A stretch of 64,000 nt of DNA from Lota lota (Eukaryota; Chordata; Actinopteri; Gadiformes; Lotidae), in assembly GCA_026745465.1 (NCBI GenBank), contig JACYXH010000115.1, forward strand, positions 1,568,501 to 1,632,500, written 5' to 3'. Positions 16,238 through 56,436 of the stretch are shown here, one piece after another (position 1 is the stretch's first letter; each line of letters begins with the position of its first letter). A model generated the notes under the pieces. That model had not been told where the DNA came from, did no database searches, and saw only the letters and a program-made list of their open reading frames with translations. Made by a program: the position numbers and the translations under genes.

Positions 16238-19200
16238 TTAGTTAACCCACAGATAGATCATAGTTATAGAACTGACTGATATGAAGAGTGTGTAGAGCCC
16301 AAATAGAAAGCGATCAATGATGAATGCCACCTGGCTCCACTCCTCAGTGTTCTGGTCGCCACTCAGATGCTGGTCCACCTGCAGCCGGATTGCCCGGAGG
16401 TCTCTCCCCAGCTTTCTCAGCTCGCCTAGGGTTGTGTCTTCCACCTCTAGGGGCATTGGAAGATTCTTACCAACTTTGTTCTCCTCCCTTACAGCATTGG
16501 GATACATATCTATATTGGCAAGATATGTCAAGAAAAACGTTTAGTTTGTCGTTTTATTTTGGGTGTTTGTCCATTGATATAATCAAGGATTCAGTCTGTC
16601 GATATAATCATAACTTAGCCTAACAACACCATACCTGTTGAATTGTCTTTTGGTGGCTTTGGAGGCAGACCAACACAACATCCCAGGGTTTGAAGGACAA
16701 CTACTCTTACCCAGTGAGGGACAGGAGCAAAGAGTCTGGAGCCTGAGTGGAGGTTGGTAATGAGAATTGTCTCCAGCAAGCTGCCCACCATCAGCATCAG
16801 GCAGATAGAGAAGAAAACATCTAGGGATAAATAGGTGAGAGTGTGAGAATTGTGAAAATTTGAACCTCCCACTGAACAAAAGAGTACTACTGACTTATGA
16901 GTGGTATGGTGTCGCCAGTGACTGGCAGCAAGTCATTCATAAGCAACAAGAAGACGGTGTAGCCTAAGATGAGGGTCATCTTAAAGGCAGAGCGGTCCAC
17001 ACTCTGTGGGGGTAACAGGAAGCTGAAGAGGTCCACTGTGATCAGGAAGCAGCTGGGAATTATCAGGTTGACCACATAGAGAGCGGCCTTACGCCTCAGA
17101 CTGATCTATGGGTTCAAAAAGAAAAAGACAGTTCTAAGTCGGGCCATTTAAGATATTATCGTTATATAACTAGTTCCTTTAATTTACCCTGTTCACCAGG
17201 AAGAAATACATCGTTTTACCATTTGTAATCATAACTTAATCATTTGATTATATTAACATATAAATAGTAAACATACGTGAAATTTGACCTCATCAAATTT
17301 AAACTCAGCATGCGTTTCTTTATAAGCAGTGATATCTAGTAGGTGCCACTCTCCTACAGTGGTCATCGCTTCCACTGTATCCTTCAGAATATCTTTTATC
17401 GGTCTGTTTAGGTCAACCCTGATGTCCTTGGCTGACAGGTTGAGCAGAGCATTGAAAAGGAGAAGAGAGCACAGGATGTTATACAACTGTACACCAAAAA
17501 TGCAACTATAATCTGAAAGAATAACCATACTACCAGAATGCAACCATAATCACATGAAATCACAAGCCTGCATAGTTTGTACCAGAGCATCCTTTGAGTA
17601 AAATTTAAAAATAACAAAAAAAGTCAAAATGTAGCTTGAAAACAAAGGCAACAATGGCATATGGCTTACTCTTTTCTTTTTGGAAATGTGAAGAATATCT
17701 GTTTATCTATGTGGTGTCTTACTTGTGTAGCTGTAGGAGTTGAAGGTGAAAGTGCAGTTCTGGATGTCAAAGGGGAAGGTGTAGATGTTCAGGTTGCAGG
17801 AGCTAACCACTCTGACAGGGCTGAAGTCGTAGATCATGCCATTAGAATGGACTTGTACATAAGGCACAAATGGGGCTGTGTTTTTAGCCACACTGTAAGA
17901 CAGCAACAAAAAACAATTTCCACCTTGTTTGAGAAATGTTTACATCTTTAGATATGATCAGTATTACCATGTTAGGAATTTATATCAAAGGCCTTGTATT
18001 GTACAAAAGGGTCACCACTTTTACATTGAGATTTGATTGGTCAGAGAAGTAATAGTGACTTAGGAAAATGAAGGAATATTCCTTAATTTAATATACATTT
18101 TTCAACTACCAAGGTTCACATGAATATATGAGTTGGGATGATAGCAATGGAATAGTTCAGTCAACATTGTGTAGATCATTGGAGCTTACCACCCAGTGAT
18201 GACGATAAGTTAAATTATGTGTAATTTACTCTTTCAGTGGTTTTTTCCTTTTAAAATGGATCGGGCCTTACCTTAAGGGTCAAACAACATTAAACAATGG
18301 GAACATTTGAGCCATTTGTTTTGTCTCTGTGTTTCACGCTTAATTATTGCTGTTGTAAATGGATCTTACATTTCATTGATGACAATATCTGGTACCCAGA
18401 ACTTGCTTCTAGGTAGCGAAATCTGGTCTGTGCCACACTGCTCTGGATCCCAGCTGATGAACTCATTCTTCCATCCCTGGAACCACAAACTATTTCATGG
18501 ATTTGGCCTATTGGCAACTAGCAGCAAATAGGTGTTTTAACTTTCAACAATGGATTTCAATACAACATAAAATTGTGTTTTTTACTTTAACAGAAATATC
18601 CAGATAACACTGGCTATTTATTTTGTTTTGTTTTTATACTTACAATGTGTTGCCAAATATAAGTTGTCAAGAGTTGAGCCTTTTCATCCTGAAAAGAAAA
18701 AATGTTATTGCAAATGATGTGTATCAATCTTTAGTAGCCAACTGTATGTAAAATATGAATCTCTGGCTACAAAGGTGCAGAGATATAAAGGGCTTTATAT
18801 CAAAATGTTGCTTAGATCCAAAATACCAGTTTCATACATAGTCATATTCTACTTTAACATTTGCTCACTTTCACATTCAAATAAAGACCACATGGTCACA
18901 GTCATTATACCAACCCAGATTTATATCCAGGGAAATCAGTTAATTCATTTGTGTGTATATATATATGTTATATATATATATAACGGGGTGGGTTATATAT
19001 ATATATATATTATACGTTATTATTATTTTATAGTTTTAAAACAACATACCACTCCCAGAATTCCATACAGGATAAAGGATACATAGACATTTGTGTAATT
19101 ATTTATGTTGCTGACAGGTCGTATGAAGCTTAAATTAAAGACCGGTGATAGTGCTTCCAGGAGTGCAAGAGTGGTGGATTTAGAACAGTTCAGCAGAGGG

Positions 19201-19785
19201 TCCGAGCACTGAGCTGGGAACAAAATAATTAAAACGTTGGCAAATGTTTACTTGGCAAATCTAGTTTGTGTCGTATGTGAAATTATACTGAATGAATACC
19301 CCAAGTAGACTACGACAATCAAATGTGTTTTTAAATGATTAAATTATTATAGTCAATTCATGTTTACTTAGACACATTCAAGTTGTCAAGATTTAGCTCC
19401 ATCATAATCCAGGAAAGATCTTGAAAATGTTTTAATATGGATTCAAACTACATAACAGATTTAAATAGCATTAATAATATAACATGTATTCTATGGTTGC
19501 CGAGGAAAGAAATTTAATAGATTTTATTTGTAATGTTTTTTATTTGCAAATAACACATAAAAACATGTACTCACCTTGTGTGACAGAGAATATGATGAAA
19601 ACCATGGTCAAAAAAGACCTGTCAGATAGCTGAAGATTGAAGAATTTGTGTTAACTACAGAAAAAAACAAGCAATATAGAATTTCATATAGCAACAAACA
19701 AGTCAATATAACACTGTGGAACAACCACAACTTCCTTAATAAGATCTATACTCTTAACCTGCAATTTAAAGTGTTTGGCAGCCAT
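16238..19785 (-). CDS. 5-HT3-like Cys-loop receptor subunit, paralogue C (10 exons, 463 aa)
   Basis: Exons: 19759-19785 (MAAKHFKLQ), 19575-19629 (rest of the signal peptide, [18 protein letters not shown]), 19050-19213, 18644-18688, 18370-18476, 17723-17892, 17277-17431, 16895-17105, 16635-16820, 16238-16509; phases close. The extra first coding exon is shared with D and E only. The Cys-loop is [15 protein letters not shown]; loop B ends FNSYSYT (Tyr for Trp). M2 is [15 protein letters not shown] with Asp -1' and Leu 9'. The MA helix reads [20 protein letters not shown] and continues [18 protein letters not shown] non-coding 5' exon probably ends at 19964 with donor GTAGGG, and a TATA-like stretch lies at 20018-20028. 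An AT palindrome lies in intron 3 near 18955-19018. This is a complete, apparently functional copy, upstream of which lies the cytokine receptor gene. Confidence 0.92.
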
Positions 19786-22882: not shown

Positions 22883-25800
22883 TTAAACACTATGATAATC
22901 ACTAATAATGATTAGCTTGTGCTGATCCGCAGGCAGAAGAGAAACCTTGTTGGCTTGAGTTTCCAGAAGACCCTGGACTCCTTGAGTAGTTGGGGGTAAG
23001 GTGCTTGCTCCATCTATGGCTCTTTGAGGCATTCCAGTGAAGAGAGTCTCAGAAACATTGTCCGGCTGATCTCTGGGCCTACTGCCGCTCGCCTTTGGAA
23101 TGAGCACTCCTGGTCGCCCCACCATACTTTTGAAGACTTGAAAGTCATCGTCCACGGAAACCAGGCTGCATGCAGGGGAAGGGCACGACTCTTCACAAGG
23201 ATTTGAATCACAGACTTTGAAAGACTGTTTCTCCTCACCAGAAACATGTTTCATCATGCTGGACTGATCAGCTGCTCGGACTAGGAGTGCCTCTTTCAAG
23301 TTCTCACCAGACACAGAGGAGCCAAAGCCACTCAGGATGGAGGAAGAAGTGGTGTCACTTGAAAAAGAGCTGTAAGAGAGGTCTACCTGCAGAGCATCTG
23401 TTTGGGACGAGCTCCCTGAATCGGCGTTCCAGGACTGATACGAAAAATCTGTTTTCATATGGGATGAATCGAGTCTACTTACTAAAGGCTGCCTCTGTCC
23501 AGTCATCTGGAAAATAGGCACCTTAGAATCTGGACTAAGGTTGTGCGATACACCCCACAACATGCTGGGATTGTAGAAGGACTCACTAAGATCAGCAAGC
23601 GGGTTGGCAGCGCTTAACCCCTGGGTCCCAGAAGGAGGAGCCATGAAATATGTCATGTTCTCAAAGGTGGACAGGCTGGAGGTCCCAGCGACTGGATAGT
23701 AACTAGTGTTGCTGTGGGCAATGAAGAGCCAGGGAGCTGTGGAGAGCTGGGGGAAGGCCATACGCAGGGCTTCCTCCACATTGGAGATGACGTCCAAGGA
23801 GACCTTCTGAGAGTAACCCAGAGACGATATGGCGCTGTCAGCTCCAGCACTTTGAAGGGAATTACCACCGCTGCTTCTGTCCCTGGAAGATAAACCAGGA
23901 GATGGAAGACAATTTGTTATGTTGCAAGTCATTTAATCGCGCCACATCATCACTGTGACTGCCGTATTTTTCATAAATAGTTTCTTGGACTTCAGTGCCC
24001 TTATGCACAGGACAGTGAAGAATGTGTTGAAACAAAAAAGGGCCATCCCCTAGAAGATAATAAACCTGCAATATTAACCCACCATGTTTTTTCGCCGTCT
24101 TCGTCGTCTTTACGGTGGTCAACATAGACAGAGTGCAGGGGGACTTTCTCCGGGATTAGCACCTGTGAAATGGTCAGCAAATCCCGTTTTACATCACATG
24201 ATGATTTTTAAAAGATTTGGCCTGTTAAAGGTTCATTGAGTAGAATTTTATAGCAACTAATGGTGAGGTTGCAGATTGCAACTAACGTCACCCCTCCCTT
24301 TCCAACGACTGCAGTGGCCTGTACTTACACAATTACCTATATTGTGTAAGGTGCCAGCAGTAATTTCCGTTTTGTGAAAAGACAATATTCATTTTAATCG
24401 CACCATGGTCACTATATGTTGTAGGAAATGGTGGAGGTAACAGCCTATTTGTTATTTATGTTTCACTACACTATTTTACACTTGGTTTAAAAAGCGAAGC
24501 TCCATTATTATTGAATCCTCTAAATACATATCTTCATAGGCTATACGAGGCGCGTCCAAGAGAGGGTTAAGCCTCTCGGACACTTACTAGTACAACGCCA
24601 CGGGCTGTGTGGATGTGTGGAGCTCTTTCTGTGCAGCAGTTCATGTTGCTGTCCCCCCCCCACCCCACCCCCCCCCCCCCCCCCCCCACCCCCCCGAGAG
24701 AGGGTTAAGCTTCTATGACACTTATATATACGCCACGGTGTGTGGCACATTTAATATACAACATCACTTATAACTCTCTTGCACAACAAAATCACAAATG
24801 GGTTGTCACAGGGGTGAATTTAGTATCAAACTGTGAATTTTTAATTACTTCGACGTTCAACCTACCGGTTGCAATGGACTGGCTCAGTGGGGAAAAAGTA
24901 ACACATTTTGTCCAGTTGCCAGGGCAGTTCATATTCACTTATTTGTTTTGGACTAACCAAGATACAACTATGGGAGCTGCTAAGCACTCACTTGGAATAT
25001 AGTAGATGGTGGTAGTTTTGGAAAGCGCGTACACCACGAGAGGGGGTGAGTTAGAATGAAAATAATGGTTCTTTTACATGTGGACATAGACAATGTCAAC
25101 AATTATCCTAGAGTCTTAACAAACAGGCTAAATCCTTTTAATAATCAAGACCAAAGCCAAGCACCACAAATTGACGAATTAAACAAGAACTGACATTTTT
25201 CTAACTGTTAAAAATCAAACCCCTTTTGGGATAAGTCGTAAAGATGTATTTATAAGTTAAAGGCAGTAACTTGTATATCATTACAAAGTAACTTATGTCT
25301 TCACATGGAGTAACTAAGACCAGAAAAATAAGGTAAAACTTATTTATTTGCATCGATATAAAGCCATGTACCTTGTGCTCTCCTGGGACCATAACTAAAA
25401 TGGTTGAGTTTTTATAGTTGCCAAAGCTATCCCACCAACTCTCTTTAAACCTGGAGACAAATACAAAAAATATAATTGAAATTAGAAAAATAAAAACTGT
25501 CTGACATCATGGCACTAGTTACTGCAAGGAGGAGGTCTCACCGTGTGCAGAAAAGGAACAGGGAACTGGTGGCGATGACCGCAACAACACACAGACTCAG
25601 AATGATCACCACCCTAATACTTCCAGAGGACACAGCTGAAAAAGTACATGTATATATCATATATGAGAAAAACATCCGAGCCTTTTCACGGTCTCCAACC
25701 ACTAGTTTATACAATTTCTTCATTAACTAGAGAGAAATGCTCAATTTACTGCATTTATGTAACTTGTTTGATACCACGACTAGGATGCACCGATTAAAAA

Positions 25801-27859
25801 AAAAAAAAAAAGTGCAGATGCTATCCGATAATACTCAGTATATGCCCCTAGACTCGGTTTACGGACAGCTGGATAGGTGGAGATAGAGAGGGATGGAACT
25901 GAGAACAGCAGGAGTAGCAGAGCAGACGGTAGCCTGAAAGATGGGGACCAGAGGTAGAGGGGTTAGATCTTACGGGTGGTGAATCGCACGTTGTCACTAC
26001 TTTCGCTGTTGGATGAAGAGGAGCTCCTCACGTTGACCAGGTACTCCGTATCCGGATCCAGCAACTTGCCCAAAATCTGATATGACTTCATAGCCGAAAC
26101 GTTAACTTCCTGGCAGAGAAAGACCACAGCTTCAACGGCATGGCGCAGAAGTAAATATTAGTCTAGGATTCATCTACAGCTTATGTTAGGCTCCAGCCAA
26201 CACTTTGTCTAACCAAGACATGCTGCACAGAATTAACTCCCACCACCACAAGAATCAAAACCTTTACCAATTATTCCAAATACACCCTAATAGATCAACA
26301 ACACATACATATGTGGCAATTCCACAAATAGCAAACTAGTATTGCATTGAGTCATTTCTATTTTTGTAATACTACTTTTTACAGGAAATTCTGCCTTTCA
26401 GTAAAGAGACAGAATTAAGTGATGAAATTAGAAAGTTATTGACATGTAGGCCTTGAACTGGGGACTCTGGTGTTAATGGACATACCGTGCCTTTCTCTCC
26501 TTCTTTGTGGTAGGTCAGCAGCACTTTCAGATCAAAGGGGGGGTCATCATATTGTGTGTCCCACGTCACCAGATAATTCTCATTTTCTTTTGTCACCGAA
26601 GTGAGTTTAGGGGCTTTGGGTTTTACTGGGGTAGGGATTACACAGAGACAGGCCATTAAAGTGCAGGTAGGGGTTAAACAGTGAATACAGAAACCGGTCA
26701 TTAAGGAGCAGCTAGGAGTAAAGCGAGCGTAAAGCGAGACAAGCTTATAAACAAAAACAAGTAAATGGGGAGCTGTGGGTTTTCTTGATCAAAAGTACTA
26801 TAACGATTAGATTTCTCAACCGATTTCCATGAGTCATTTTCCTATTCATTTTAAATCATTATATATAGCCATATTTATTATAAAATACATCTTTTTTTTT
26901 TTTACTCCACGTAGATCATTAACCCTTGAATTAAAACGAATCATTGAAATCGGTTGAGAAATTTAAACGTTAGTGTTTTTAATCCAGAAAAACCGCCGCT
27001 CCCCCGTTTCCATTGGAGAGTTTGCCTCTCCAATATGGCGGCTACTGTCAATGGAGTATATGTCGATGGGTTAGACAGTACAGACACCGGTCATTATGGA
27101 GCAGGTAGGGGTTCCCAAAATTCGGGAAACATTGGGAATTGACTTTTGCAAGCTAACGGTTTGCTTAAACTCACTGTTTTCGTCAACTGCGATGCTTTTG
27201 TATTCCACTAGATCCCCAGCTTTCCACAGCGTTGTATTGTGACTCTCCCCCAGAACAAACCTCATAAGACCATGTTAAAGTTAGAAACATATTCGATATT
27301 GGTTGTTCAACAGATGTTTGCGATTTGTAAAAAAAAAGGATCATTACCCATTAATGTTCAACGAGCAACTGCATGTCCCCGTCCGAACTTTGTCCGGTGT
27401 TAAATTGCAATTGCTCTCACTGCAAAGTGAAGTAAAGCACACTATTTCATATTTGAATAACTTTAAATAGCCTATTAACTATTCAATTACAAACCAGTGT
27501 TTCTACGTTTCTTTGCATTTCATATTTACAAAACGATGCATTAATAATTACGTGCGTCTGCTGGAGAAATACACTCTGGTGTTGATGCTATACTCGGCAC
27601 AGTTCGTTTCCTCGGGTGGGGGACCGAACCGACAGAACATCAGCCTATCGTAGTCGTTGGTGCAGTGAAGATTGCGCCCCGTGTCTTCAAAACAAAAGCA
27701 GGAAATTGTTAAAAGTACGCGAAATAAAAGCACAGCCATCTCACTGAGGTGGTTTCAAGGGAAGCATTTTCTCTTACCGTGTGTTGCCAAAGAAATACTG
27801 TTCAGAAGGAAAACGCCCATGTAATAGCTGAAACCAATAGACAGCATATGTAACGCCAT
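22883..27859 (-). CDS. il4r: Class I cytokine receptor, best fit interleukin-4 receptor alpha (9 exons, 609 aa)
   Basis: Single-pass receptor chain predicted to bind IL-4/IL-13-type cytokines and signal through JAK-STAT. Exons: 27778-27859, 27552-27684, 27175-27260, 26486-26625, 25974-26109, 25542-25635, 25372-25450, 24083-24162, 22883-23882; all phases close. The signal peptide starts MALHMLSIGFSYYMG. The first domain has LHCTNDYDRLMFCRF and NCAEY, matching the CxxDY...C(E/R)(W/F) pattern of IL-4R alpha. The second fibronectin domain starts IKPKAPKLTSV (human VKPRAPGNLTV). The membrane segment is VVIILSLCVVAVIATSSLFLF, followed by FKESWWDSFGN, which matches human KKEWWDQIP before Box 1. The long last exon is a Ser-rich tail with several tyrosines (SLGYSQK, DFSYQSW, DLSYSSF) and ends SDYHSV. 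There is no WSXWS: the site reads SSSSSNSESSDN. An alternative ATG at 27739 lacks an intron and fits less well. IL-21R or another common-gamma partner cannot be fully excluded. Confidence 0.78.
24650..24696. repeat. Poly-C tract in intron 8 of the cytokine receptor gene
   Basis: C runs interrupted by single A residues (plus strand), flanked by two near-copies of 'gagagagggttaagc' at 24562 and 24696. The flanking pair suggests a short tandem duplication around the tract. On the minus strand this is a G-rich stretch able in principle to form a quadruplex. Confidence 0.85.
26797..26978. repeat. Palindromic miniature element in intron 3 of il4r
   Basis: The left arm at about 26800-26836 ('aacgattagatttctcaacc', then 'gatttccatgagtcatt') is mirrored by the right arm at 26939-26976, whose reverse complement reads 'aacgtttaaatttctcaacc' and then 'gatttcaatgattc'. 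About 100 bp of AT-rich DNA with a T tract lies between the arms. Long imperfect inverted arms around an AT-rich core are typical of a miniature inverted-repeat transposon. A hairpin RNA is possible but the loop is too long for a normal microRNA precursor. Confidence 0.6.
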
Positions 27860-28629
27860 TATTGTTACACCGAATTCATTTACATGAGCTTGTGTATAAT
27901 CTTAATTTACCGTATAACTAGTATCCGCTCCATAGTCCACTAAAAGTATTGAGTTTACCAAAACAGAAACCCCTTTCGGGGCGGACACAATCCTTTCAAG
28001 AGTGTCCGTTGTGTTTCGACATCTAACTGGAAATGCTCCTCCTTTCTTTCAGTGGAGGCTTGCGTCACATTTCCTTTAAAACATGAATCATCAGCACTGG
28101 ATGAACATCAACAACCACAGAACAAGTTTGGCTTGACCCACCGAATCTGAAACAACACTTGGTGTCGCACCTCTTTGAGAGCAGGCATTGTGTTGTTAAT
28201 CATTCCTGGCGTACATGAGGCCAGGGGCGGTTCTAGGACTTTTTAACTTGGGTGGCAAAGTGATCTAGAGGTGGCCATAATGCGTTGTTTGTGTTTGCAC
28301 AGCGCGCATTAATATTCTAATAATAGGCTGAAACATAAATTAATAGGCAACATGCATACACAGAATTGTTGATGGTCAGTATCCTATTTTGCATAACCTT
28401 TATACTCAAGTAGGCAAACATTAACAATGAAAAATAAAGACCTTTTTTTCTGAGCTAATTTACAAAAGTTAGGGCTATTAAGTAGTCAAATGCTCTAAGC
28501 AAACATCTGAACAAAAATGCCTTAGAGAAACCCTGACTTCTATCTTCCTCTAAATAAACTCAAAATGACTAATCTGAATTATGTTATATACCATACATTA
28601 TAGCATGCTGTGTATTGTAGGGTGTAGGG

Positions 28630-30589: not shown

Positions 30590-33500
30590 TTATTGGCTGT
30601 ATGAAAAGGCCCAGATACAGATCAAAGCTAAAAAGCTGACTATTATGAAGATGGTATAAAGGCAAAATAGAAAGCGATCAATGATGAATGCCACCTGGAT
30701 CCACTCCTCAGAGTTCTGGTTCCCTCTCAGCTGCCGGTTCACCTGCAGCCGGATTGCCTGGAGGTCTCTCCCCAACTTTTTCAGTGTGTCTAGGGTTGTG
30801 TCTACCAGATCTTTGCCCTGTGGAGGATTCATGAAAATGGCGCGCTCCTTCTCCACTGCAGCATTGGGATTCACATCTGTATGGTAATACAGGTCTTTCA
30901 TGTTTAAGTATATGCATTTTCTGCACTAGGTGCCATATCCATTACTTTTTGATTGAAAACGGGAGATTTGTCAAGACAAATGCAGAACTAATTCGTCATG
31001 TTCTCATTTTGTATTTTTTTTGTTTTGTTTTGCGTGCTTAAGTCTATGGAAATAATGATAAACAGGAACATGGAACAGTCAATTCTAGCCTAACACACCC
31101 CATACCTGTTGAATGGTCTTTTGGTGGCTTTGGAGGCAGACCAACACAACATCCCAGGGTTTGAAGGAACACTACTCTCACCCAGTGAGGGACAGGAGCA
31201 AAGCGTCTGGAACCTGAGTGGAGGTTGGTAATGAGAATTGTTTCCAGCAAGCTGCCCACCATCAGCATCAGGCAGATAGAGAAGAAAACATCTGGGGATA
31301 AATAGGTGAGAGTGTGAGTATGCTGGTTACTTTTCAGTTCAAGCAATATAAGTCGATTTTTCACCTCCCACTGAACAAAAGAGTACTACTGACTTATGAG
31401 TGGGATGGTGTCGCCAGTGACTGGCAGCAAGTCATTCATAAGCAACAAGAAGACGGTGTAGCCTAAGATGAGGGTCATCTTAAAGGCAGAGCGGTCCACA
31501 CTCTGTGGGGGTAACAGGAAGCTGAAGAGGTCCACTGTGATCAGGAAGCAGCTGGGGATGAGCAGGTTGACCACATAGAGAGTAGACTTACGCCTCAGTC
31601 TGACCTATGGGGTTTACAAAAAGATAGTTCTAAATAGGGCCATTTGAAACATTATCGTTATGTAACAATTTTCTTTACTGTACCCAGTCACCGGGAAGAA
31701 ATACATAATGTTATATTTTCTTATCATGACTATAACATTTGACTCAAACATACGTGAAATATGAGCTCATCACTTCCATATGGTGGTTCTGCACTTTGTG
31801 TTTCTTTATGAGCAGTGATGTCTACTAGCTGCCATTCTCCTACAGTGCTCATCACTTCCATTGAATTCTGCAGAATTTCATTTATTGGAGTGTTCAGTTC
31901 AACCCTGATGTCCTTGGCTGATTGAGTAGAGCATTGCATAGAAGAAGAGAGCATTGGATGTTACAAATGTATCCCTTCACCCAAAATACACCAACCATAC
32001 AAAAATACAACTATAACCAGAAAGAATAACCCAACTACCAGACACAACCATAACATATTATCTCGAGAGCTGCCCTCATCTTAAGGGCAATAAATATTCT
32101 TGTAGTTTGTTTATCCTTCGTCCCAGTGCAATTCGTCACCGTGTCAAGTCACAAGCCTGCGCAGGTCGCAGCGGAGCATAGGTTTAGTAAATTGTAAAAA
32201 AAAGAAAGAAAAAAAAGTAAAATCCAAATGTAACACGATCAACGATCAAACGATCAAAATGGAATGTTGTTTTTGTGTGGATTCACTGCTCACTAACTAA
32301 CTCGTTGGAATCGAGAGCTGGGTTGATTGACAAAAGAAAGGCACGGTGCTACTCGTTTGACGCTGGGTCAGAGGAAAATAAAGGTATTTCCCTAAAAGTA
32401 CATTCCTTTGACTTACCATAGTCAAATTACAAGGAAGGCTGCACGACCGTGACCAATTGGTAGTCTCGCACTAGATAATCCACACTGAGGAAAACTACTG
32501 ATATGGCATATGGGTTACTCTTTTCTAACTGAAATGTGGAGCATATTGGTTTATATATGTGGTGTCTTACCTGTGTGCATGTAGGAGCTGAAGGTGAAAG
32601 TGCAGTTCTGGACGTCAAAGGGGAAGGTGTAGATGTTCAGGTTGCAGGAGCTAACCACTCTGACAGGGCTGAAGTCGTAGATCATGCCATTAGAGTGGAC
32701 ATCTACATAAGGCACAGCTGGGGCTGTGTTTTTATCCATACTGTAAGACAGCAACAAAAACATATTTGCACTCAGTTTGAGCAGTGTTTACATCTTTAAG
32801 TACAAGATTAATATAATAATGTTTGGAATTTACATCAAAGGTCTTGTCTTGCACATTGGTCAGGGAAGTAACAGTGATTTAGGAAAATAAATGAGTATTA
32901 GAAATGTTTCAGCTCCCAATGAATCCATGAGTTGGGACAACTGCAATGGAATAGTTCAGTCCCCAATGTGTGCATCATAGGATCTTACCACCCAGTGATG
33001 ATGATACATTTACTTATGTGTGATTAGGTCTTTCGGTGGCTTGGCCCTTGTTAAGACAATCAGAAGATTTGAGCCATCTGTTTTGTCTCTGTGTTTCACA
33101 CTTAATCCCTGCAGTTGTAAATGGATCTTACAATTCATTGATGACAATATCTGGTACCCAGAACTTGCTTCTAGGTAGCGAAATGTGGTCTGTGCCGCAC
33201 TGCTCTGGATCCCAGCTGATGAACTCGTTCTTCCATCCCTGGAACCACAAACTATTTCATGCATTTGGCCTATTGGCTACCAGCAGCAAATATGTGATTT
33301 AATTTCAAATAATGAATTAAATTTGGGGTTTCACTTTACGGAAATATCCAGATAATGACTGGCTATTTCGTTTCCTTGGTTTTTATACTTACAATATCAA
33401 GCCAAATGTAAGTGGTCAAGAGTTGAGCTTTTTCATCCTGAAAGAAACGTAAATGATGTGTATCAGTCTACAATAGCCAACTATGTTCTGAATATGTATC

Positions 33501-35153
33501 TCTGGCCTTTTGTGCTAGAAAAAAGCACATGGTTCTTAAATAATAATACTTATTATTATTTAAGTTCATAAGTGAAGTTCATAAACACAATATACCAACC
33601 CAGGTATCTATCCAGGGAGATCAGTTAATTCATTCTTCATTCAAAATGGTGTAAATAGGTTTAAAACTAAACATACCACTCCGAGAATTCCATACAGGGT
33701 AAAGGATACCAAGACCTCTGTGTAATTAGCCATGTTGCTGACGGGTCGTATGGGCTGTAAGTCAAAGACCGGGGACAGTGCTTCCAGGAGGCCACGAGGG
33801 TTGGGTTCAGAACAACTCTTCCCCTTTTTCTCAGCTTCTTCCACCACTTTAGTCACCACTGCCTTCTCTGTTACAGCCGCCGCTAGATCCACCACCGTCT
33901 TCTCCGGTACATTCACCACTTCAGTCACCACTGCCTTCTCTGTTACAGTCACCACTGCCTTCTCTGTTACAGCTGCCGCTAGATCCACCACCGTCTTCTC
34001 TGTTACATTCACCACTTCAGTCACCACTGCCTTCTCTGTTACATTCACCACTTCAGTCACCGCTGCCTTCTCCAGTACATTGACCACTTCAGTCACCGCT
34101 GCCTTCTCCAGTACATTGACCACTTCAGTCACCGCTGCCTTCTCCAGTACATTCACCACTTCAGTCACCGCTGCCTTCCCCAGTACATTCACCACTTCAG
34201 TCACCGCTGCCTTCTCCAGTACATTGACCACTTCAGTCACCGCTGCCTTCTCCAGTACATTGACCACTTCAGTCACCGCTGCCTTCTCCAGTACATTGAC
34301 CACTTCAGTCACCGCTGCCTTCTCCAGTACATTCACCACTTCAGTCACCGCTGCCTTCCCCAGTACATTCACCACTTCAGTCACCGCTGCCTTCTCCAGT
34401 ACATTGACCACTTCAGTCACCGCTGCCTTCTCCAGTACATTCACCACTTCAGTCACCGCTGCCTTCTCTGTTACAGCCGCCGCTGGATCCACCACTGCCG
34501 TCGCCACTACAGTCACCACGTTTAAGGTCTTTTGTCCAAGACCTTAAACAAACAAAACAATAAAAACAGCAACCAATAAACAAATGTTGGCAAATGTTTA
34601 CTCCACAATAATGCATTCTCTAGTTTGTGTCATATGGGAATGAATACATACCCCAAGTGGACTATGACAATCAAATGCTTTTTTTAAATTAAGCATGTCA
34701 ATTAATATGAATTTAAAGACGAATTCAAATTGTCAAAATTTGCTGTCCATCATAATACAGAAGATTTCTTGAAAATGTTTGAATTGAATAGGATTCCGCC
34801 TATTTAACAGAATATAAATAACATTAACAATCACATTTTGCAAAAATACAACATAATAACATGTATTCTATGTACTATTTCAGCAAAACCTGTATGGTTG
34901 CAGAGGAAAAACATTTGATAGATCTCCCTTAAATAAGATTTAAATTGTAATGTTTTTTTGTTTCCATGTACTCACCTTGTGTGACAGAGAATATGATGAA
35001 TACCATGGTCAAAAAAGACCTGTCGGATAACTGAAGATTTAAGAATTAGTGTTAACTACAGTGTTAACTAACAAACAAGTCAATGTTACATTGTGTAACA
35101 ACCACAACTCCCTCATCATGATCTATACTCTTAACCTGCAGTTTGACAGCCAT
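30590..35153 (-). CDS. 5-HT3-like Cys-loop receptor subunit, paralogue D, with N-terminal minisatellite (10 exons, 702 aa)
   Basis: Exons: 35136-35153 (MAVKLQ), 34976-35030 (signal peptide [18 protein letters not shown]), 33677-34542 (866 nt; 164 nt in C and E), 33393-33437, 33132-33238, 32571-32740, 31754-31917, 31394-31604, 31106-31291, 30590-30876. All phases close. The large third exon places about 230 extra residues, mostly [12 protein letters not shown] repeats, between the signal peptide and the conserved start of the ligand-binding domain ([19 protein letters not shown]). Its acceptor is TTTAAG preceded by a T-rich tract, a little weak but in phase. The rest is a normal subunit: Cys-loop [15 protein letters not shown], loop B FSSYMHT (Tyr for Trp), M2 [15 protein letters not shown], last residues WAFSYSQ. 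It lacks the usual CSDPL...C segment of C and E. Normal length elsewhere argues for a functional gene. Confidence 0.9.
33863..34462 (-). repeat. Coding 36-bp minisatellite in exon 3 of gene D
   Basis: Fourteen units that include VNVxxK (consensus [12 protein letters not shown], 12 residues) plus two [12 protein letters not shown] units and one short unit. The first eleven units (34462 downward) are nearly identical; the last ones diverge (VTEK and VPEK variants, and VVT for AVT), as expected of an array that expands at one end. Two units, the third and the eighth, share the variant LGK, and the surrounding base variants repeat in the same order, which points to a duplicated block of five units (180 bp). 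No unit has a frameshift or stop. Confidence 0.95.
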
Positions 35154-35550: not shown

Positions 35551-37153
35551 AACGGTATTAAAGTCACAAAACCCTGAAACATGCAGCTGTGTTAGTGTTA
35601 GGGTCGGCATCACAAATTTGTAGACACCAACAAGTGAGTCCGCTACAAAATTTGTAGACACCGATAAATAAGTCCACTACAGTGTTTGTATGCTCTTGCA
35701 GTGTCCATGTACACAACGTAATCCATAAAAGAGGAGTTGATGATTAAAGTCGTGTTCACTTGGGACAAGTTTGGAGAGTGTACCCACCCACAGTTATTAC
35801 CATAACAGTGAGTTACATTTAAAGCGTGACACTGACCTGAATACCTGCCCCACTATAACCTTGGAGATGGCTGGAGTGAACACTGTATGCAATGAGGTGT
35901 ATCTGGACTGGCATAATCCTGTATACTCCCAGATACTCCACAGATAATCGGATGTATCCGGGAGTACTCCCTGACATGTACAAGTTTGGGGTCCTGCCTC
36001 CTGTTTGGTGCTTGAAAGAAAACACACTGCATTTCACACCTTGGGCCACGAGTTGCCATGGTGAATAATCCGTTGGGGGTGAATAATCCCCTGGGGGTGC
36101 TTGCAAGAGAACATTTGCATTTCACACCTAAGGCCACAAGGTATTCTACAATTGGTCAAAAGTCTTACCTTGGATTGGTGGCACAATGTTTTGCCCCTCC
36201 TCTAAAACCCCTCCTCATTGCTCCAGTGTGTTGTAGGTATATTATATAGATAGTCTGACAAACAAAAAGTATTTTTTAATACTTTTATTAGACATCAATA
36301 AAATACAGTATAGAATCAGACTCACTTCATTTGCGAAGGTACATTAAAGGCACTATACTGAGCGTGCAGGGTTGAGGGTTGGTTTAGGGGAGGGGAGGTG
36401 AAAAGGGTGGGAGGGAGATCCTTTGTGATTCGAATTGCAATTTAACTGTCCTGGGAGTTTGGGGTCAACAGGCTTTTGTGGTCTCCTTTGTGAATCTATC
36501 TGCACCAACTCCTGTATGGTGATTCACAACATATTCACAATATCTTTGGTCTGCGTCCAGTCTATTCTGTAGCACCCCACACAGTGTAGACAACTCTGTG
36601 CTACTCTGTTCTCCCCAGCCTCAATTTGGTGTTGTGGGAGTGTGTGTAGATGATGGCTGGTTTAAGCAGCCTCGCCTGGCCTGAGTCTGACTGATGAACA
36701 AGGCTGGGCTAGATTTTCGGCGCCAGTTGGCTAGGCTAGGATAATTTTCTCATTTCAGTGGAGTTGAGGCTAGGTCAAGCTCTTGGGAAAATGAAAGGAG
36801 AGAGTTCGTGAGAAATCAGCTGCGTACAATTCTTGGAGCTAAAGAGAATAGACGTGAGCTCGGGGGCTCACTGTCCGGAGCGGGGAGTGGAAAAAACTCT
36901 GTCAAGATGGCAGGGACGGAGAGTGACGGTGGCGAAAGTAGTATGTTGTTGAGTGAGGAGGAAGAGAGAAGGGAGGGTGATTGGAGCGAGGTAGTGAATA
37001 GAACAAGGAAGGAGAGTGGTAGGAAAAGGAAAAAAGAGCATACTGGCACTAGTGAGTCGGATAATGATGGGAGAGACGTTGGGAGGAGAGGTCAGAACAC
37101 TAGAGTGACTAATATGGTGGTAAGATTTGAGGAAGAAGGGGGAGTGAAGAAAT

Positions 37154-38413
37154 TTGATTCAGCATATGATACAATACAAGCAAGCTCAGGCTGTAGTGCG
37201 GAGGACAGTGAGACATGCAAAAAGGTCACATTGGAGGAATTATTGTGATACAATTGGTAGCACAACGCAAGTGGGTGAGGTGTGGAGTATGATAAAAAAG
37301 ATGGGAGGTGATAGAAGGGAGTGGAGTTATCCAGTTCTGACTGAAGGGGATGTGACAGCAGTAACTAATACGGAAAAGGCAGAGTTGATGGCAATTACAT
37401 TTGTTAAAGTGCATAGCTCGGATAATTTGTCTGTAGATGAGAAAAGAGGCAGAGGAAAAATGAAAGCGGACAACGAGGAGGCTCTATGCAGGAAAGTTAA
37501 GTGTGATGGTGATGGTCTGAGTGTCCCTTTCAGTATGGGGGAATTGAGGAAAGCACTGGATAAGTCGGGTATGACCGCACCTGGTAAAGATGAGGTTTGT
37601 TATAGCATGATAAAGCATTTAAATTCTGATGGCCTGGAGAAATTATTGTTGTTATTAAACAAAGTTTGGGAGGAGGGTTACATGCCAGAGAGTTGGAAAG
37701 AGGCGCTGATTGTACCAATAAGGAAACCAGGTAAAGATCCAAGTAGGCCTGGGAATTATAGGCCAATTGCATTGACTTCACACATTTGTAAATTAATGGA
37801 GCGTATGATAAATGAGAGGTTAGTACATTTAATTGAAAGTAGAGGCATGATGGCAGCTTATCAAAGTGGTTTTCGGAAAGGTAGGAACACTATGGATCCA
37901 GTGGTGTGTTTAGAGGATGAAATAAGGAAAGTCCAAGTAAATAAAGAGACAGTGGTTGCAGTGTTTTTTGATGTTGAGAAAGCCTATGATATGCTATGGA
38001 TTGAGGGGCTGCTAATAAAGTTACATAAGATCGGAGTTGGGGGGAATATGTTCAATTGGATAGTGGATTTTTTGGATAAAAGGACCATTCGAGTGAAGAT
38101 AGGTTCTGAGGTATCCAGCATGTTTGTTGTTAAAAATGGGACACTTCAGGGGAGTGTAGTGAGTCCGATGCTTTTCTCTATTATGATAAATGATGTGTAT
38201 GTGAATATTCCGATGGACATAGGTAGATCACTGTTCGCTGATAATGGAGCTATGTGGAAAAGAGGGAGAAATATTGACTATTTGATTGAGAAAATGCAGG
38301 ATGCAGTTACGCGAGTTGCAGACTGGGGAGCACAATGGGGTTTTAAATTTTCAGTGGAAAAAACTAAAACTATGTTCTTTACAAGGAAGAAACTCCATGG
38401 ATATATAATCTGA
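37154..38413 (+). pseudogene. LINE ORF2 part 1: linker and reverse transcriptase, active site mutated
   Basis: 419 codons open. Reverse transcriptase motifs are easy to see: PGKDPSRPGNYRPIALTS, AYQSGFRKGRNTMD, the first catalytic Asp in VFFDVEKAYDMLW, GTLQGSVVSPMLFSIMIND, then FADNGAMW, where the usual box is FADD; the second Asp is Asn. The frame ends at a stop at 38411-38413. A single-base length change near 38400 separates it from the downstream part, which continues with the expected sequence in another frame. Both defects make the copy inactive. Confidence 0.88.
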
Positions 38414-39975
38414 CACTATATGGAAATGATTTGGAGAGAGTTGATACTTTTCGTTTTTTAGGTGTGTATTTTGATATGAGACTGACATGGAAAGAACATG
38501 TTAGACAGGTAGTTAGTAAATGTAAAAAGGTGATCAATGTTATGAGGTGTCTTACAGGGTTGGAGTGGGGGGCTGATTTTACGTCAATGAAGTATATCTA
38601 TAAAGTCTTAATACGATCGAGGTTGGATTATGGTAGTATTGTATATGGATCTGCAGCTAAATCTGTACTGTCTGATCTGGATGTTATTCAGGCTCGTGCT
38701 CTGAGGATTTGTTTGGGGTCGATGAAAACTGCTCCAGTTTGTGCTCTGCAAGTTGAGACAGGTGAAATGCCGTTGTGGCTCCGTAGGAAACAGCTTATGG
38801 CCAATTATTGGATACATTTAAAAGGTCATGATGAATGGCATCCTACAAAGAGGGTATTGAAGAATTGCTGGGAGAAGGGTAAAGAGCGAAAGGGAAGTTT
38901 TGGATGGATAGGCGAGGAAATAGCAGAACAGATGAAAGTACAAGGAATTGAGTTTTGCTTAAATGTTCTGTGGCCTGTTATGCCAGCCTGGATGCTGAAT
39001 ATTGCTTGTGTAGACCTGGAGTTGCTGAATATCAAGCGCAGGAATAAGACCGTAGACATAGTTCAAGAATATTACGACTATAGAGATAGAAATTATGGTG
39101 GTTATGTACAGCTTTTTACTGATGGCTCGAAAGATTTACTGACAGGAGCAACGGGGGCTGCAGTGGTGATTCCTAGTTATCAGACTGGAGTCAGTAGGAG
39201 AACTTCAGACTATTTAAGTGTGTATGCAGTTGAAATGCTTGGACTTTTGTTAGCTGTAAGATGGGTGGAAGAGGTGATGGTGCGCAATGTTCTCATTTGT
39301 AGTGACTCAGTGTCAGCGCTGTCGAGTCTCAAATCAGGATCGGCCAGGAATCACCAAGAACTTGTGTATGAAATTTTGTTTATAAATTCAAGGTTCGTTG
39401 ATCAGGGTGTGAATGTGGTGTTCATGTGGGTCCCTGCTCATGCAGGAATACCAGGTAATGAACGAGTGGATAAACTGGCAAAGGAGGCTGTTAAGAAGGG
39501 TAATGTAGAACTGAATACTAAACTATCAAAATCAGAGGGGAAAAGCATTGTGTGGGAAGACATTTTCAAACAGTGGCAACAATATTGGGATGGTGGAAAT
39601 AAAGGGAGTAAATTGCATATGATTCAAGCTAAAGTAGGCCAAGGAGGGGTGAGTTACAGTGGGTTTAATCGACAAGATCAAGTAATTATCAGCAAACTGA
39701 GAATTGGACACAGTAGGTTAAATAGTACACTTTTTATATTGGGAAAATATCCGACTGGCTATTGTAGTTTGTGTGAGGAAATGGAGACAGTGGAGCATGT
39801 CTTGATGTCATGCAGGAAATATATTCGAGAAAGAGGGGTTATGTTTGCTGGATTACGGAAATTAGGTTTAGTTGGACTCAGGATTACAGATGTCCTTCAT
39901 AGTGGAGTTATTGTTAATGGAAGGAAATATTTATTTGCATTTTTGAAAGGCACTGGTCTATTTAGGAAATTGTAG
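38414..39975 (+). pseudogene. LINE ORF2 part 2: thumb, RNase H and Cys-His motif
   Basis: Open to 39975 in a frame shifted relative to the reverse transcriptase. It begins with the conserved TFRFLGVYFD segment. RNase H follows: QLFTDGSKD (first Asp), AVEMLGLLLAVRW (Glu), LICSDSVSAL (Asp), VPAHAGIPGNERVDKLAK (last Asp and surrounding His). Near the end GYCSLCEEMETVEHVLMSC is a Cys-x2-Cys...His-x4-Cys motif typical of the end of I-type ORF2 proteins. The long intact frame indicates that the copy inserted fairly recently. Confidence 0.88.
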
Positions 39976-47076: not shown

Positions 47077-48558
47077 TAATCATTGATGCTTACCACCCAG
47101 TGACCATTCAGTGGTATGTCTCTTCTTAATGGGAATTGCCTTACCTTAAGGTTCAAACAACATCAGACAGTAAGACGATTCGAGCCATCTGTATTGTGTG
47201 TGTGTTTTACACTTAGTTATTGCAGTTGTACGTGGATCTTACAATTCATTGATGACCACATCTGGTACCCAAAACTGGCTTCTAGGTAGCATTATCTCAT
47301 TAGTGCCACACTGCTCTGGATCCCAGCTGATAAACTCATTCTTCCATTCCTAAATGACAGATTTGAATACAATATGCAATTTGTGATTTTACGTTACGTG
47401 AAATATTCAAAACAATATATATTTTGTTCCCTTGGTATTTATACTTACAATTTCAAGCCATATATAGGTATTCAAGACTTGAGCTTTTTCATCCTATACA
47501 AAAAGAGTAAAACAAATGGACAAAAAGTATTTTCGCCATAGCATTTGATGTATTAATGTTTTACATTTGAAGGTTTCCATAAGAGTTGAGAATACAAAGG
47601 AGAGATCATCATTCAAAATGTTCTTTCTTATATTCTATCTTCTTACAATTGTTGTAATAGATTTAAAACTGAACATACCACTCCCAGTATTCCATACAGG
47701 GTAAAGGATACAGTGACTTCTGTGTAATTCTTCAAGTTGTTGACAGGTCGTATGGCCTGTAAATTAAAGACTGGTGATAGTGCTGCCAGGAGGCCAGAGG
47801 GTGTTGGTTTAGAACATTTCTGTAGAGGGTCCAAGCACTGAACTGGGAACAAAATAAAAAATAACAACAATAACAGCGAATAAACAAGGGCAAATTATAA
47901 ATATATAATTAATACACCTAATCATCCATTGGACACCAAAAGATTTTTCAGGATGGATTTGCCCCACAGCTAACCAACTTAATACCCTGCTCCCTTTGTA
48001 GATATAAAGGACAAATTTTAAGGTAACAAAAACACAACGGTTCAAATTTTCATGGGATTATACACTAATAAATACAGTCTTATGAATATTAAATTAAATT
48101 TCTGCCAAGTCCATTCTGCTAAATGCCACTTATTATACACACTGCACCTTTACAATTATGTAAAAAATACAATATAACAATGCACTATGTTATGTCTCAG
48201 CACACCTCGTAGGGTTGCTGACAAACTGGACACCATATTTTGACAGATCTCCCTCAGTACAAATTGTTGTTTCAATCTGTTTTAATTTTATAAAATCATC
48301 AATTTTATAAAATTATAAACATATAAAGACATACAAACACTAGTTTCCATGTACTAACCTTGTGTGACAGTAAAGATGATGAAAACCAGAGTCTCAAAAG
48401 GCCTAGCCAATCGCTGAAGATTCAAGAAGTAGTGTTAACTACAGAAAACTAATTAAATATAGAATTGCATATAACCACAAGTAAATATTTCAATGTTTAA
48501 CTGCCATAACTAACTCAACATGATCTATAGTGTTAACCTTGAATTTTAGGGCAGCCAT
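44282..48558 (-). CDS. 5-HT3-like Cys-loop receptor subunit, paralogue E (10 exons, 460 aa)
   Basis: Exons: 48538-48558 (MAALKFK), 48359-48413 ([18 protein letters not shown]), 47679-47842, 47449-47493, 47243-47349, 46097-46266, 45346-45500, 44955-45165, 44667-44852, 44282-44550; all phases close. Cys-loop [15 protein letters not shown]; loop B ends FNSYMHT (Tyr for Trp). M1-M3 is almost identical to that of D, including [15 protein letters not shown], whereas the loop C exon differs strongly ([19 protein letters not shown] against [20 protein letters not shown] in D). The intron between exons 8 and 9 differs from that of D at about one base per hundred, pointing to recent exchange. The last exon ends WVSSYRL. 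It has its own TATA-like promoter upstream. This appears to be a functional copy. Confidence 0.92.
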
Positions 48559-48990: not shown

Positions 48991-50288
48991 CAAATTCCTG
49001 AAATATGCATGCAGATGTGGTTGATTGGTCTGCAGCGCAGATCTCAACACAAACAAGCTTTTTCTCCATGCAGTGTTACACAACAGACCACATACAAGTC
49101 ATGTTAAAAAGGGGAACAATTAAAGCAGATCACAGGCTCGTTTTGAAAAGAAACAGGCAAACATTTGATCTTGGCCACAACCTGGCCAGGAGTTAAGGTG
49201 TAACCCCTCAAGGTCTATTCATCAAATATACTTTTTATATCAATTTCCCTAAAAAGATTTGATATGCCCCAGTAATATACTCTAAACCTACTAACTGACT
49301 GACAGCCAGCCCAAACACTACAAACAAACTGTTGCATACGGTTGTGCTGCTCGGGATGGTTGTAGCATCAGCAGCGGAGGCAGGTTAGCTGCTTTATTTT
49401 CATCTTGTAAGGTAGCTTTCAGACTGGGATGGATTTGTTAAGAAAACAAATGTTGTGCCATGCGATAACTTCAACTTAACACACAACTCGCCCTAATAAT
49501 CATTTAGAATATTGACATTTTAATTTCCTTCCCAACCAAGAAATGAAATCAGATGACATCTAATTGATAACTTTAATAATCAATGATTCAAACTGTTAGT
49601 AAAATACATTTCGATTATTTAAAGCCGGTAAAGCATTGCCTTAGTAGAACCTTAACAGACAACTGGACTTTCACAACTTCCTGATATTGTGCAGCATGAT
49701 GATTAGGAGGCAGATGCAACAGTAGACGGTAAAGATTGAAATGATATGTACAGCGAGAAGGGGCGATGGCCAAGAACTGACCCTTGTTGCATCACCTTGA
49801 CTCATCTGTGCACAGTCCGAATGATCAGAAATCAGAGAAGGTAGACAGGAGGAGCTGATGGCTCATGGTGCCTAACTGATCACTTACCCAAGCCTACTTA
49901 CATGTTGAGTGTTGCATCTAATAAGTGCTGTGTTCACATTGAGTGTTGCATCTAATGAAGAACAGAATAAGAATAAGTTCTGTCAACCATCGCACAAGGT
50001 GCGTCCGATGGCTCCATTCCAACCCAAAAATTCTCTAAGCTTCGATTTTCGATGGTGAATGCCAGTGCCAATTCACCACTTTCCCTCATAAATTATGACA
50101 TGATTCTTGTTTTCAATGTACGACGAAATGGTCCATTTCAGTTACATAGGTTTAGTGATGAGAGGCGAGGGAGAGGGAGGGACTTTCGAGGGAGGATAAC
50201 CGTTTTCCGTTACATGTTACATTCTCTTTCCCAAATGAAAGAAAGTTGGAAATGTTGGAAAAGGATTGTTTATCTATGTGGTGTCCTA
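48991..50288. other. Spacer upstream of gene E
   Basis: No gene or recognisable element. Positions 49200-49700 are AT-rich. Positions 49760-49870 contain a stretch ('agaaggggcgatggccaaga ... catctgtgcacagtccga') vaguely like the old repeat at 15230-15420, but I could not establish similarity. Two near-copies of a 'gttcacattgagtgttgcatctaatgaa' type segment lie at 49905-49955. Confidence 0.35.
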
Positions 50289-51240
50289 CTTGAGTGGATG
50301 TAGGAGTTGAAGGTGAAAGTGCGGTTCTGAACGTTAAAGGGGAACGTGTAGCTATTCAGGTAGAAGGCACTGACCACTTTGAGGGGCACGTAGTGTTTGA
50401 TCTTGCATTGAGGTCATGCACATAAGGTACATTAGGGCCTTTGTTTTGCTCCATACTGTAAGCCAGCAACAAGAGCATATTTCCACTGTGTTAGAGAAGT
50501 GTTTTAAAGGTTACTTACAAGATCAAAATAATTATAATACTTGGAGTGTGACTCAATTACAACACAAGTAAAATAAAAAACATCAAGGCAGTTTAGAGAA
50601 TTGGAGAGAGCCAGCAATTTGTGTTTTACAAATAAATATTTGCTGTCTGTTACTATTTGCAATAGGACCTACGTTTACATTGAGCTTGGATTGTTGAGTG
50701 AAGTAGAAATGGTTTAGAAAATTAAATAAATCATTTTAGATTTTTTTTGAAAAACATTATGAAGTTTTGATGTAGTTTTGGGTTTTGTCCAGGAGATATC
50801 ATTATCGCCCTAGTTTCGTTATCTCAACTATGTTCATTTGTTCATTGTGTTGACTATACTTCTTGTCATGTCAGTGTTCTCTGGTTCCATTTGTCTTTTT
50901 GTCAACTATTTGTACTACGGTTAGGTGGTAACCACTATATTTGCATGTGCATGTATGTCAGAAATTGGGTCTGAACTCTTTTTTGAGTTGAGATGATTGC
51001 AATGGAATTGTACATCCCACATTGTGTACATCCCACACCTCACTTAACTTAACTTACGATTGGGTTTCACCCTTGGGTGGTTTTTGCCCTCTACTTTGAG
51101 CCATCTTTTACAGTGCCTCTGTGTATTACACTTAAAGCTTGCAGATGTAAATGTTTCATACAATTCATTGATGACCTCATCTTGAACCCAAAACTGGCTT
51201 CTTGGTATAGTGTTATCTCGTTTGAGCTGAATTAACACGC
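50289..51240 (-). pseudogene. Relic of a sixth 5-HT3-like receptor copy
   Basis: Two exons are recognisable. Positions 50289-50455 match the Cys-loop exon of C-E (SYTFPFNVQNRTFTFNSYIH), but one frame shift lies near the middle and both Cys-loop cysteines are lost (Cys to Phe and Cys to Arg). Positions 51162-51240 match the loop A exon (QFWVQDEVINEL) and have lost the start of the exon. Weak similarity to the 5' intron continues to about 51340 ('cttcattcaaaatgttg', compare 33633). No membrane exons remain on the downstream side. It cannot encode a receptor. Confidence 0.85.
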
Positions 51241-52734: not shown

Positions 52735-55036
<2,302 letters not shown>

Positions 55037-55078
55037 CCCTGCGCATTTGTAAGCTGAAGAGCTCGAGGTGTCTTCATC

Positions 55079-55218
55079 TGGACAATAGAAATGTTTAGCG
55101 GAAGTCTGTTTAAGGTGTGTTGGAAAGACCGGTTAATCTGCATCACTTTCTTTAGCTAGACAACAGAAATGTTTAGAGGAAGTCTAGTTGAGATGTGTTG
55201 GAAAGACTGGTTAACCTG
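55079..55218. repeat. Two-copy tandem repeat upstream of the SEA-like gene
   Basis: A unit of about 78 bp whose first 60 bp read 'acaatagaaatgtttagcgg ... ggaaagaccggttaatctg' is repeated once as 'acaacagaaatgtttagagg ... ggaaagactggttaacctg'. It lies 40-180 bp upstream of the predicted start codon, hence in the promoter or 5' leader. Each copy has an 'aaccggtctttcc'-like element on the gene strand. Confidence 0.8.
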
Positions 55219-55482
55219 CGAGTTCATCAACCCTAAAAGACAAATCCCACCAGACTAGGACTCTTCACATCGAAAACATTCGGAGATGCCAACCAAATGT
55301 TGAACCCTATGGAAGCGTTACATTTTTTTTCTGTAGTGGCAGTAATGCACTTCCGTAGAACCCCAGTGATAATGTTGGGTACAGGTGTTTGCGCACAGAC
55401 CCAACAAATGCTAACAAATCAACATTGGGCCAGGGTGCCATACCTGTTGTGTTGGCTGTTGTCACAGGAATGGATGGGTGTT

Positions 55483-55598
<116 letters not shown>

Positions 55599-55695
55599 CT
55601 GAATGACACACATTCTTGAGGTGGTGACTTCTGTTTATACAGTGAGATCTTCCTTGATCGACATTGAGGGAAATGTTGTTGACTTAGGAGCCCAG

Positions 55696-55803
<108 letters not shown>

Positions 55804-56432
55804 ATGTTTGCCCTGATTGGGGCAAGGATGATTAAGCCAGCCATCAGCAACACACCCTCCACATATACTTTCTTGTATTGTTAGGATTACAGTTGATCGA
55901 AATGATCTTAAACGCTAGCAGATGTATCCCACTAGATGGCAGTGTCTGCCTATTGTAAACGCTGTGTGCCACAGTGCGTTATGTGTTTAGCCTAAAATGC
56001 TGTGAACTCGAACGCCATATGTTGCACGGATGCCAATGCATAGTTTCTTTCATGAATTTCCAAACTAAATGAATAATAAGAGAAATAGACATACAGCCAG
56101 AATAAGCACCACCAATGGAAAAATATCACTGGGAATGAACAACCACTGCGTCACCTGCTGTTGTTTCATGATATTACCTTTTATTTGTTTGTGTTTGTTG
56201 ATCTGTTTACTAATTGTAACGCATACATTTTAACCACAACAACGTCACTGACAATGTGGGAGTGGTTTCCAAGTTCCCGTGTTCTATCTCCCTCACAGCA
56301 AAATAATGAGCAGATAGTTAGAAACATGTATGGGACCGCAGATTGAAATGCTATTATTGACATTTGTACCTCATCTTGACCAGAAATTTTATTTTTATTT
56401 TAAACTTTATTTGATTGAGAAAAGTTAACACA

Positions 56433-56436
<4 letters not shown>

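Follow-up and report, generated by a model that had tools for sequence, protein, structure and literature searches.

In the burbot (Lota lota), one of three neighbouring 5-HT3-like receptor subunit genes (C, D, and E) carries in exon 3 an in-frame tandem repeat of 36-bp units, situated at the predicted splice acceptor of intron 2 and before the conserved start of the ligand-binding domain (LBD). With a confidence somewhat above even, we regard it as a recent, length-variable coding repeat that was exonised via an acceptor at 34542 and is carried as a tolerated passenger, some of the mRNA skipping it via a second acceptor at 33780. All positions refer to the window, i.e., the whole analysed stretch of 64,000 nt.

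Gene D and its paralogues

Gene D was rebuilt from a reading of the minus strand and a tblastn placing of paralogous exons. It extends on this strand from 35153 to 30590 and comprises ten exons and nine introns, each of the latter GT...AG, with a resulting open reading frame (ORF) of 702 residues:

35136..35153, minus strand: gene D exon 1, start codon, MAVKLQ; GT donor; similar exon in C and E
34976..35030, minus strand: gene D exon 2, remaining signal sequence, ends in phase 1; AG...GT; peptide identical in C
33677..34542, minus strand: gene D exon 3 (predicted), 866 nt; array and conserved start of the LBD
33393..33437, minus strand: gene D exon 4
33132..33238, minus strand: gene D exon 5
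32571..32740, minus strand: gene D exon 6, Cys-loop
31754..31917, minus strand: gene D exon 7
31394..31604, minus strand: gene D exon 8, M1-M2
31106..31291, minus strand: gene D exon 9, M3
30590..30876, minus strand: gene D exon 10, MA helix, M4, stop
19050..19213, minus strand: gene C exon 3 for comparison, 164 nt, array-free
47679..47842, minus strand: gene E exon 3 for comparison, 164 nt, array-free

The rebuilt gene upholds the lengths of exon 3 given in an earlier reading of the letters alone (the sequence-only reading), i.e., 866 nt in D and 164 nt in C and E, the excess of D amounting to 702 nt or 234 residues. Its statement that the phases match both neighbours holds as well: exons 1 and 2 total 73 nt (phase 1), exon 3 contributes 866 nt, and exon 3, read on the minus strand, contains 35, 19, and 0 stop codons in its three frames, of which the stop-free frame fits the phase-1 end of exon 2 and continues unbroken into the conserved part of the exon. 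Openness alone is weakened evidence for coding, because a stop-free 36-bp unit remains open at any copy number; informative is that only a single frame of the three is open and that this frame suits the exons on either side. On the plus strand, two frames over exon 3 are nearly open (1 and 4 stops); these were not accepted as coding.

Concerning the receptor itself, signal sequence, LBD, Cys-loop (13 intervening residues, read directly from the ORF), and membrane region are all intact, as the sequence-only reading had it, and Pfam recovers Neur_chan_LBD (1.7e-39, 135.9 bits, cut-off 26) and Neur_chan_memb (1.7e-21, 78.0 bits, cut-off 28.1). The closest solved relatives are 5-HT3A sequences (best E 8.4e-86), which fill the first 16 places among 60 PDB sequences listed out of 348 matches. 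According to the gene model, D is an intact 5-HT3-like subunit gene. Its loop B reads SYMHT, as against SWLHT in 5-HT3A. The loop-B Trp is a marker of the serotonin-binding principal (A-type) 5-HT3 subunit, and because D possesses Tyr at this position, it may not be a principal serotonin-binding subunit.

Divergence among C, D, and E is low (dS 0.13-0.17 in aligned blocks), which suggests recent duplication or gene conversion. Protein identity to D is patchy across exons 7-10 (exon 7, 56-58%, and exon 10, 54-58%, in C and E; exon 8, 93% in both; exon 9, 95% in C and 86% in E), and this patchwork suggests gene conversion within the cluster. In 284 aligned codons of the three genes, the D-only changes comprise 10 synonymous and 8 nonsynonymous ones (E-only, 10 and 20; C-only, 5 and 9, respectively), and because of this proportion gene D is, as judged from its codons, not decaying. 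The reading of D as a pseudogene was rejected, the ORF being intact and the D-only changes lacking nonsynonymous enrichment.

Elsewhere in the window, a LINE-like element on the plus strand is situated between D and E (36745-39975), with two overlapping ORFs in different frames (RVT_1, 4e-31, in ORF 37151-38413; RNase H, 2.3e-12, in ORF 38371-39975). The remnant of a further 5-HT3-like gene lies on the minus strand at 50285-51211, where exons 5 and 6 are matched in part and the pieces of exon 6 fall into two different frames. Between C and D, a multi-exon gene on the minus strand (about 22883-27900) exhibits fibronectin-like segments and a membrane segment; from its look we take it to be cytokine receptor-like, and Pfam found no domain in its long ORF 22883-23932. 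The region 53272-64000 is dense in long dinucleotide repeats, perfect or nearly so (AG x 88 at 96%, TC x 64 and GT x 57 at 100%), a density as expected of a cod genome.

The repeat array

The array consists of a homogeneous core and two degenerate flanks:

34469..34516, minus strand: degenerate 5' part of the array, 12-bp grain
34037..34468, minus strand: homogeneous core, twelve nearly identical 36-bp units (copy number as assembled, the array being known from one sequence)
33829..34036, minus strand: degenerate 3' part of the array, 12-bp grain, in frame

Tandem Repeats Finder calls the array independently (34004-34468, periods 72 and 108, scores 846 and 860; period-36 row, 33854-34499, score 151), which, together with the 0 stops of the open frame, confirms the in-frame 36-bp minisatellite described earlier; among C, D, and E, it is confined to D, as the sequence-only reading had stated. 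The 12-residue unit given in that reading is the encoded unit of the core in another register. The range 33863-34462 assigned to it by the sequence-only reading covers most of the array, but not its full extent from about 34516 to about 33829 (around 700 bp).

Self-identity of the core is 96.7% at a lag of 36 bp and has its maximum of 98.0% at a lag of 180 bp; because the best identity falls at the latter, a block of five units is copied inside the array, which suggests turnover. The core units differ by a G/C third-base variant in six units, an A/G variant (E to G) in two, and an altered final codon in the last, i.e., by one synonymous substitution, one nonsynonymous substitution, and one codon, and a signature of purifying selection sought among these differences was not found. 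The three 12-mers of each unit are mutually alike (7, 9, and 7 of 12 positions, a sum reached in one of 10,000 shuffles), and the degenerate flanking units hold a strict 12-bp step with zero frameshifts when exon 3 is laid out in frame. In the window outside 33750-34560, no other copy of the 36-bp consensus was found at up to 12 mismatches, while two places match at 13 and 14. With a unit between 10 and 100 bp that is a multiple of 3, arranged in tandem within the open frame of a predicted exon, the array has the sequence properties of a putative coding minisatellite.

The 240 residues counted from residue 1 of exon 3 are acidic (net -14) and valine-rich (78 residues), and the array contains two NVT glycosylation sequons. 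The Pfam matches of the array to LED_rpt (33.1 bits, under the cut-off of 59) and MgtE_N (27.8 bits, slightly over the cut-off of 25.9; best stretch 54-133) are probably repeat or composition matches. AlphaFold2, run on exon 3 alone and without alignment, yielded a mean pLDDT of 42.5, with means of ten-residue blocks up to 63, and placed regular strands (about ten residues per 12-residue period) at low confidence. A confident fold is absent from this model, and none is claimed; equally, the array exhibits no recognisable or confidently folded extra N-terminal domain of the DeCLIC type. The earlier proposal of a long repeat arm facing neighbouring cells finds no support in this prediction. The unit of antifreeze glycoproteins consists of Thr-Ala-Ala/Pro tripeptide repeats, and the unit of the array is of another kind.

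Relatives

Among the matches listed, the closest orthologue or paralogue models to D are gadiform. The D orthologue of Arctogadus glacialis (P0056, 84.6% identity over 423 residues) is array-free in its model, the signal sequence running straight into ALSPVFDL, a join that corresponds to the AG at 33780 in the window. The Gadus morhua model P0085, also array-free, starts with KHLLSCSEP and is missing exons 1 and 2; this start resembles that of the old exon (PLLNCS in C), with no array. Both cod orthologue models are incomplete at the 5' end. Since the units are near-identical at both 36 and 180 bp and the array is unseen in these two models, it would appear to be young. The tolerated expansion is the better-supported half of the earlier interpretation.

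Array proteins were found neither with the whole 702-residue D query among the 120 listed of 588 matches nor with a 487-residue query among the 120 listed of 861. A query with the array only (residues 24-272) gave a single match, P0121 (E 0.2), among 7996 candidates of about 386-1228 residues; this protein of 416 residues has an unrelated domain, and its unfiltered alignment to the array (38% over 135 residues) was taken as a low-complexity match. Seven array motifs were sought in all 176 fetched proteins, none of which carries any of them; this includes P0069, which was rejected as an array relative despite a long alignment over the array region. Across the gene models and listed matches, the array is thus likely absent in relatives.

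A public burbot model (P0156, unnamed protein product) is identical to exons 6, 7, and 8 of E (56, 52, and 70 residues) and continues with part of E exon 9 (21 residues), part of D exon 9 (33), and C exon 10 (16 + 73, with one differing residue between them); it is without D exon 3. Such a chimera of the neighbouring paralogues E, D, and C would be a sign of annotation trouble in a tandem cluster or of a recombinant allele.

Splice sites at intron 2

Four features bear on the start of exon 3:

34543..34544, minus strand: predicted acceptor AG (TTTAAG), directly after the T-rich tract of intron 2; phase 1; score 7.3
33781..33782, minus strand: alternative acceptor AG (GAAG/CACT), phase 1; would bypass the array; score 3.4; join as in the Arctogadus model
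33835..33836, minus strand: possible relic of the ancestral acceptor, AG/CTGAG versus AG/CTCAG in C; pyrimidine tract gone; score -8.9; weak similarity
34520..34549, minus strand: perfect 12-bp inverted repeat with a 6-nt loop, spanning the 34542 acceptor; stable predicted RNA hairpin

Acceptor and donor scores derive from an approximate matrix with unfitted base frequencies and serve for ranking only; on this scale, the acceptors of D, C, and E (n = 13, including 34542) range from 3.3 to 11.0. The acceptor at 34542 (7.3) ranks above all in-phase AGs between 34506 and 33834 (at most 2.4), and 4% of the 3686 minus-strand AGs reach its score. The site at 33780 (3.4, reached by 18%) lies among the weaker acceptors of D (3.3, 4.1, 4.4, and 4.6); the exon starting from it would be 104 nt long (phase 1), and an equivalent AG/CACT is found in phase in C (3.5) and in E (7.8). 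A join at 33780 would cost the subunit the larger part of the predicted first helix (PRGLLEAL). Within the array lie donor-like sites that, at 5.9-6.4 on the same matrix, exceed several real donors of D, such that splicing inside the array is possible, with a shifted frame if they are paired with in-phase acceptors.

The stretch AGTAAACATTTGCCAAC is common to intron 2 of D and C and is followed in both by a T-rich tract, which is longer in D and ends there at 34543. Because stretch and tract are shared, the tract of D appears to lie in its original place; AGTAAACATTTGCCAAC was aligned by MAFFT, the last stretch up to the acceptor was compared by eye, and, the acceptors themselves being left unaligned by MAFFT, the matching of that in D to its counterparts in C and E is a by-eye reading. 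After the array, AG/CTGAG at 33834 was aligned with the exon 3 start of C (AG/CTCAG), a short similarity; a start at this site would leave 158 nt, i.e., two codons under 164.

The fold of the 101 nt around 34542 (-29.6 kcal/mol, z -3.46) was equalled by one of 200 shuffles, and the 12-bp inverted repeat could mask this acceptor and could act as a splicing switch. Situated exactly on the predicted acceptor, the inverted repeat is possibly a template-switch product.

Proposed origin and alternative explanations

The simplest account of this arrangement would be that a minisatellite with a 12-bp grain arose at the acceptor end of intron 2 and grew there, separating the T-rich tract from the former AG at the exon edge; the spliceosome would still bind the old tract and take the first AG beyond it (34542), a choice that would draw the array in frame into exon 3. 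Unequal exchange or slippage could later have homogenised and lengthened it. The product would be secreted via its normal signal sequence and, after signal cleavage, carry around 230-250 extra acidic, valine-rich residues directly before the first helix of the LBD, outside the membrane and at the top of the pentamer. The subunit would most likely tolerate this length-variable passenger, and part of the mRNA probably omits the array by means of the other in-phase acceptor, 33780. How the insertion came about, that the array varies in length, and that it is probably tolerated more than selected are what we infer here.

That the array is included in at least some D mRNA is predicted, with a confidence moderately on the positive side. 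The fit of frame and phase on both sides, the score of 34542 with its T-rich tract, and the loss of most of the predicted first helix upon use of 33780 were counted in favour of inclusion; the position of the AAG acceptor within a perfect hairpin, the join of the Arctogadus model, the public burbot model P0156, the lack of array proteins among the matches examined, and the donor-like sites inside the array were counted against it. From the earlier claim that about 230 residues are added to the mature subunit, the array, its frame, and its phases therefore stand, whereas the inclusion itself is predicted only, given this hairpin and the second in-phase acceptor.

The principal alternative is that the array in effect remains part of the intron: splicing to 33780 would bypass it together with a conserved Cys, the subunit would be of normal length, and the open frame would be a by-product. 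We consider this unlikely, though deserving of serious attention, since the site is in phase, is comparable to the weaker acceptors of D, recurs in phase in C and E, and corresponds exactly to the join of P0056, while its competitor lies within a predicted hairpin. However, P0056 is a deposited gene model and no proof (of the pipelines described in its likely source paper, some draw on RNA data and others do not), the acceptor at 34542 has the higher score and the T-rich tract, and the 33780 product would lose most of a helix that is important for assembly in related receptors (PMC4786271). An assembly artefact, with the length of the array due to a collapsed, expanded, or misplaced repeat, is the least probable of the explanations considered; tandem repeats do lead to errors in assembly and annotation, as worked through for Atlantic cod in PMC6868369, but the whole array is short in relation to long reads, and graded degenerate flanks, in frame on both sides, are unlike a misjoin.

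Another alternative, in which the array is under selection as a functional extracellular module, a stiff or sticky arm altering receptor assembly, surface residence, or cell contacts, might draw on the frame maintained across all degenerate units, the two glycosylation sequons, and a low-confidence strand pattern that fits the 12-residue period; yet the array is young, homogeneous, and unseen in the relatives found, its core-unit differences lack a signature of purifying selection, and the predicted fold is not confident (mean pLDDT 42.5), so that such a module is improbable. Even more doubtful is a specific combination in which a length-polymorphic, strand-forming arm of about 230 residues would sit atop the pentamer, the choice of acceptor would be gated by the hairpin, and repeat number would tune assembly or surface properties.

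Cys-loop subunits are sensitive at their N-terminal edge, where surface expression is reduced by some short tags (PMC4786271). For a4b4 nicotinic receptors, the same paper reports that three insertions into the first helix lowered surface expression to 33% or background, and that insertions just before this helix ranged from little effect to about 20% surface expression; because of the latter, the long array itself may, by analogy, also be costly for the D subunit. If the array is included, this natural subunit and its array-free paralogues would offer a test of how much extra mass is tolerated atop the pentamer, and would show concretely how a minisatellite located at a splice acceptor can turn coding; if it is skipped, a plain intronic repeat of little interest is left.

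Comparison with known systems

Neither this array nor such an extension of a 5-HT3 subunit was found among the matches listed in the open-licence PubMed Central literature. With teleost 5-HT3-like (HTR3) subunits, gene D shares signal sequence, LBD, Cys-loop, membrane region, and the exon pattern of the neighbouring genes; it differs from them in a minisatellite of around 230 residues before the first helix and in having Tyr instead of the loop-B Trp. Bacterial channels of the DeCLIC type are likewise pentameric channels with extra mass on the N-terminal side of the LBD; the additional domain of DeCLIC, however, is structured and calcium-sensitive, whereas the array of D is a young low-complexity repeat with no confident fold (PMC9897478, PMC12664993).

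In-frame repeats are also known from gadiform coding DNA. For Atlantic cod, PMC5241972 gives tandem repeats in 17,800 coding regions of 7,372 genes, 12% of these repeats overlapping an indel; haddock and cod have far more coding trinucleotide repeats than the other fishes compared, and codfish STRs are enriched in signal-transduction groups (both PMC5894186). These sources stress di- and trinucleotides, whereas the unit of D measures 36 bp, lies at a splice site, and would make a long N terminus of a channel. The gadid antifreeze glycoprotein genes are alike as repetitive coding DNA overlooked by automatic annotation, according to PMC3441883 and PMC6868369; in contrast to these, the unit of D is not of the Thr-Ala-Ala type, and it extends an existing channel instead of forming a free protein. 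Since cod genomes are extreme in tandem repeats, coding sequence included, an in-frame repeat in a burbot receptor is of a known kind, while its size is unusual, and so is its location, both at a splice acceptor and on the sensitive N-terminal margin of a Cys-loop subunit.
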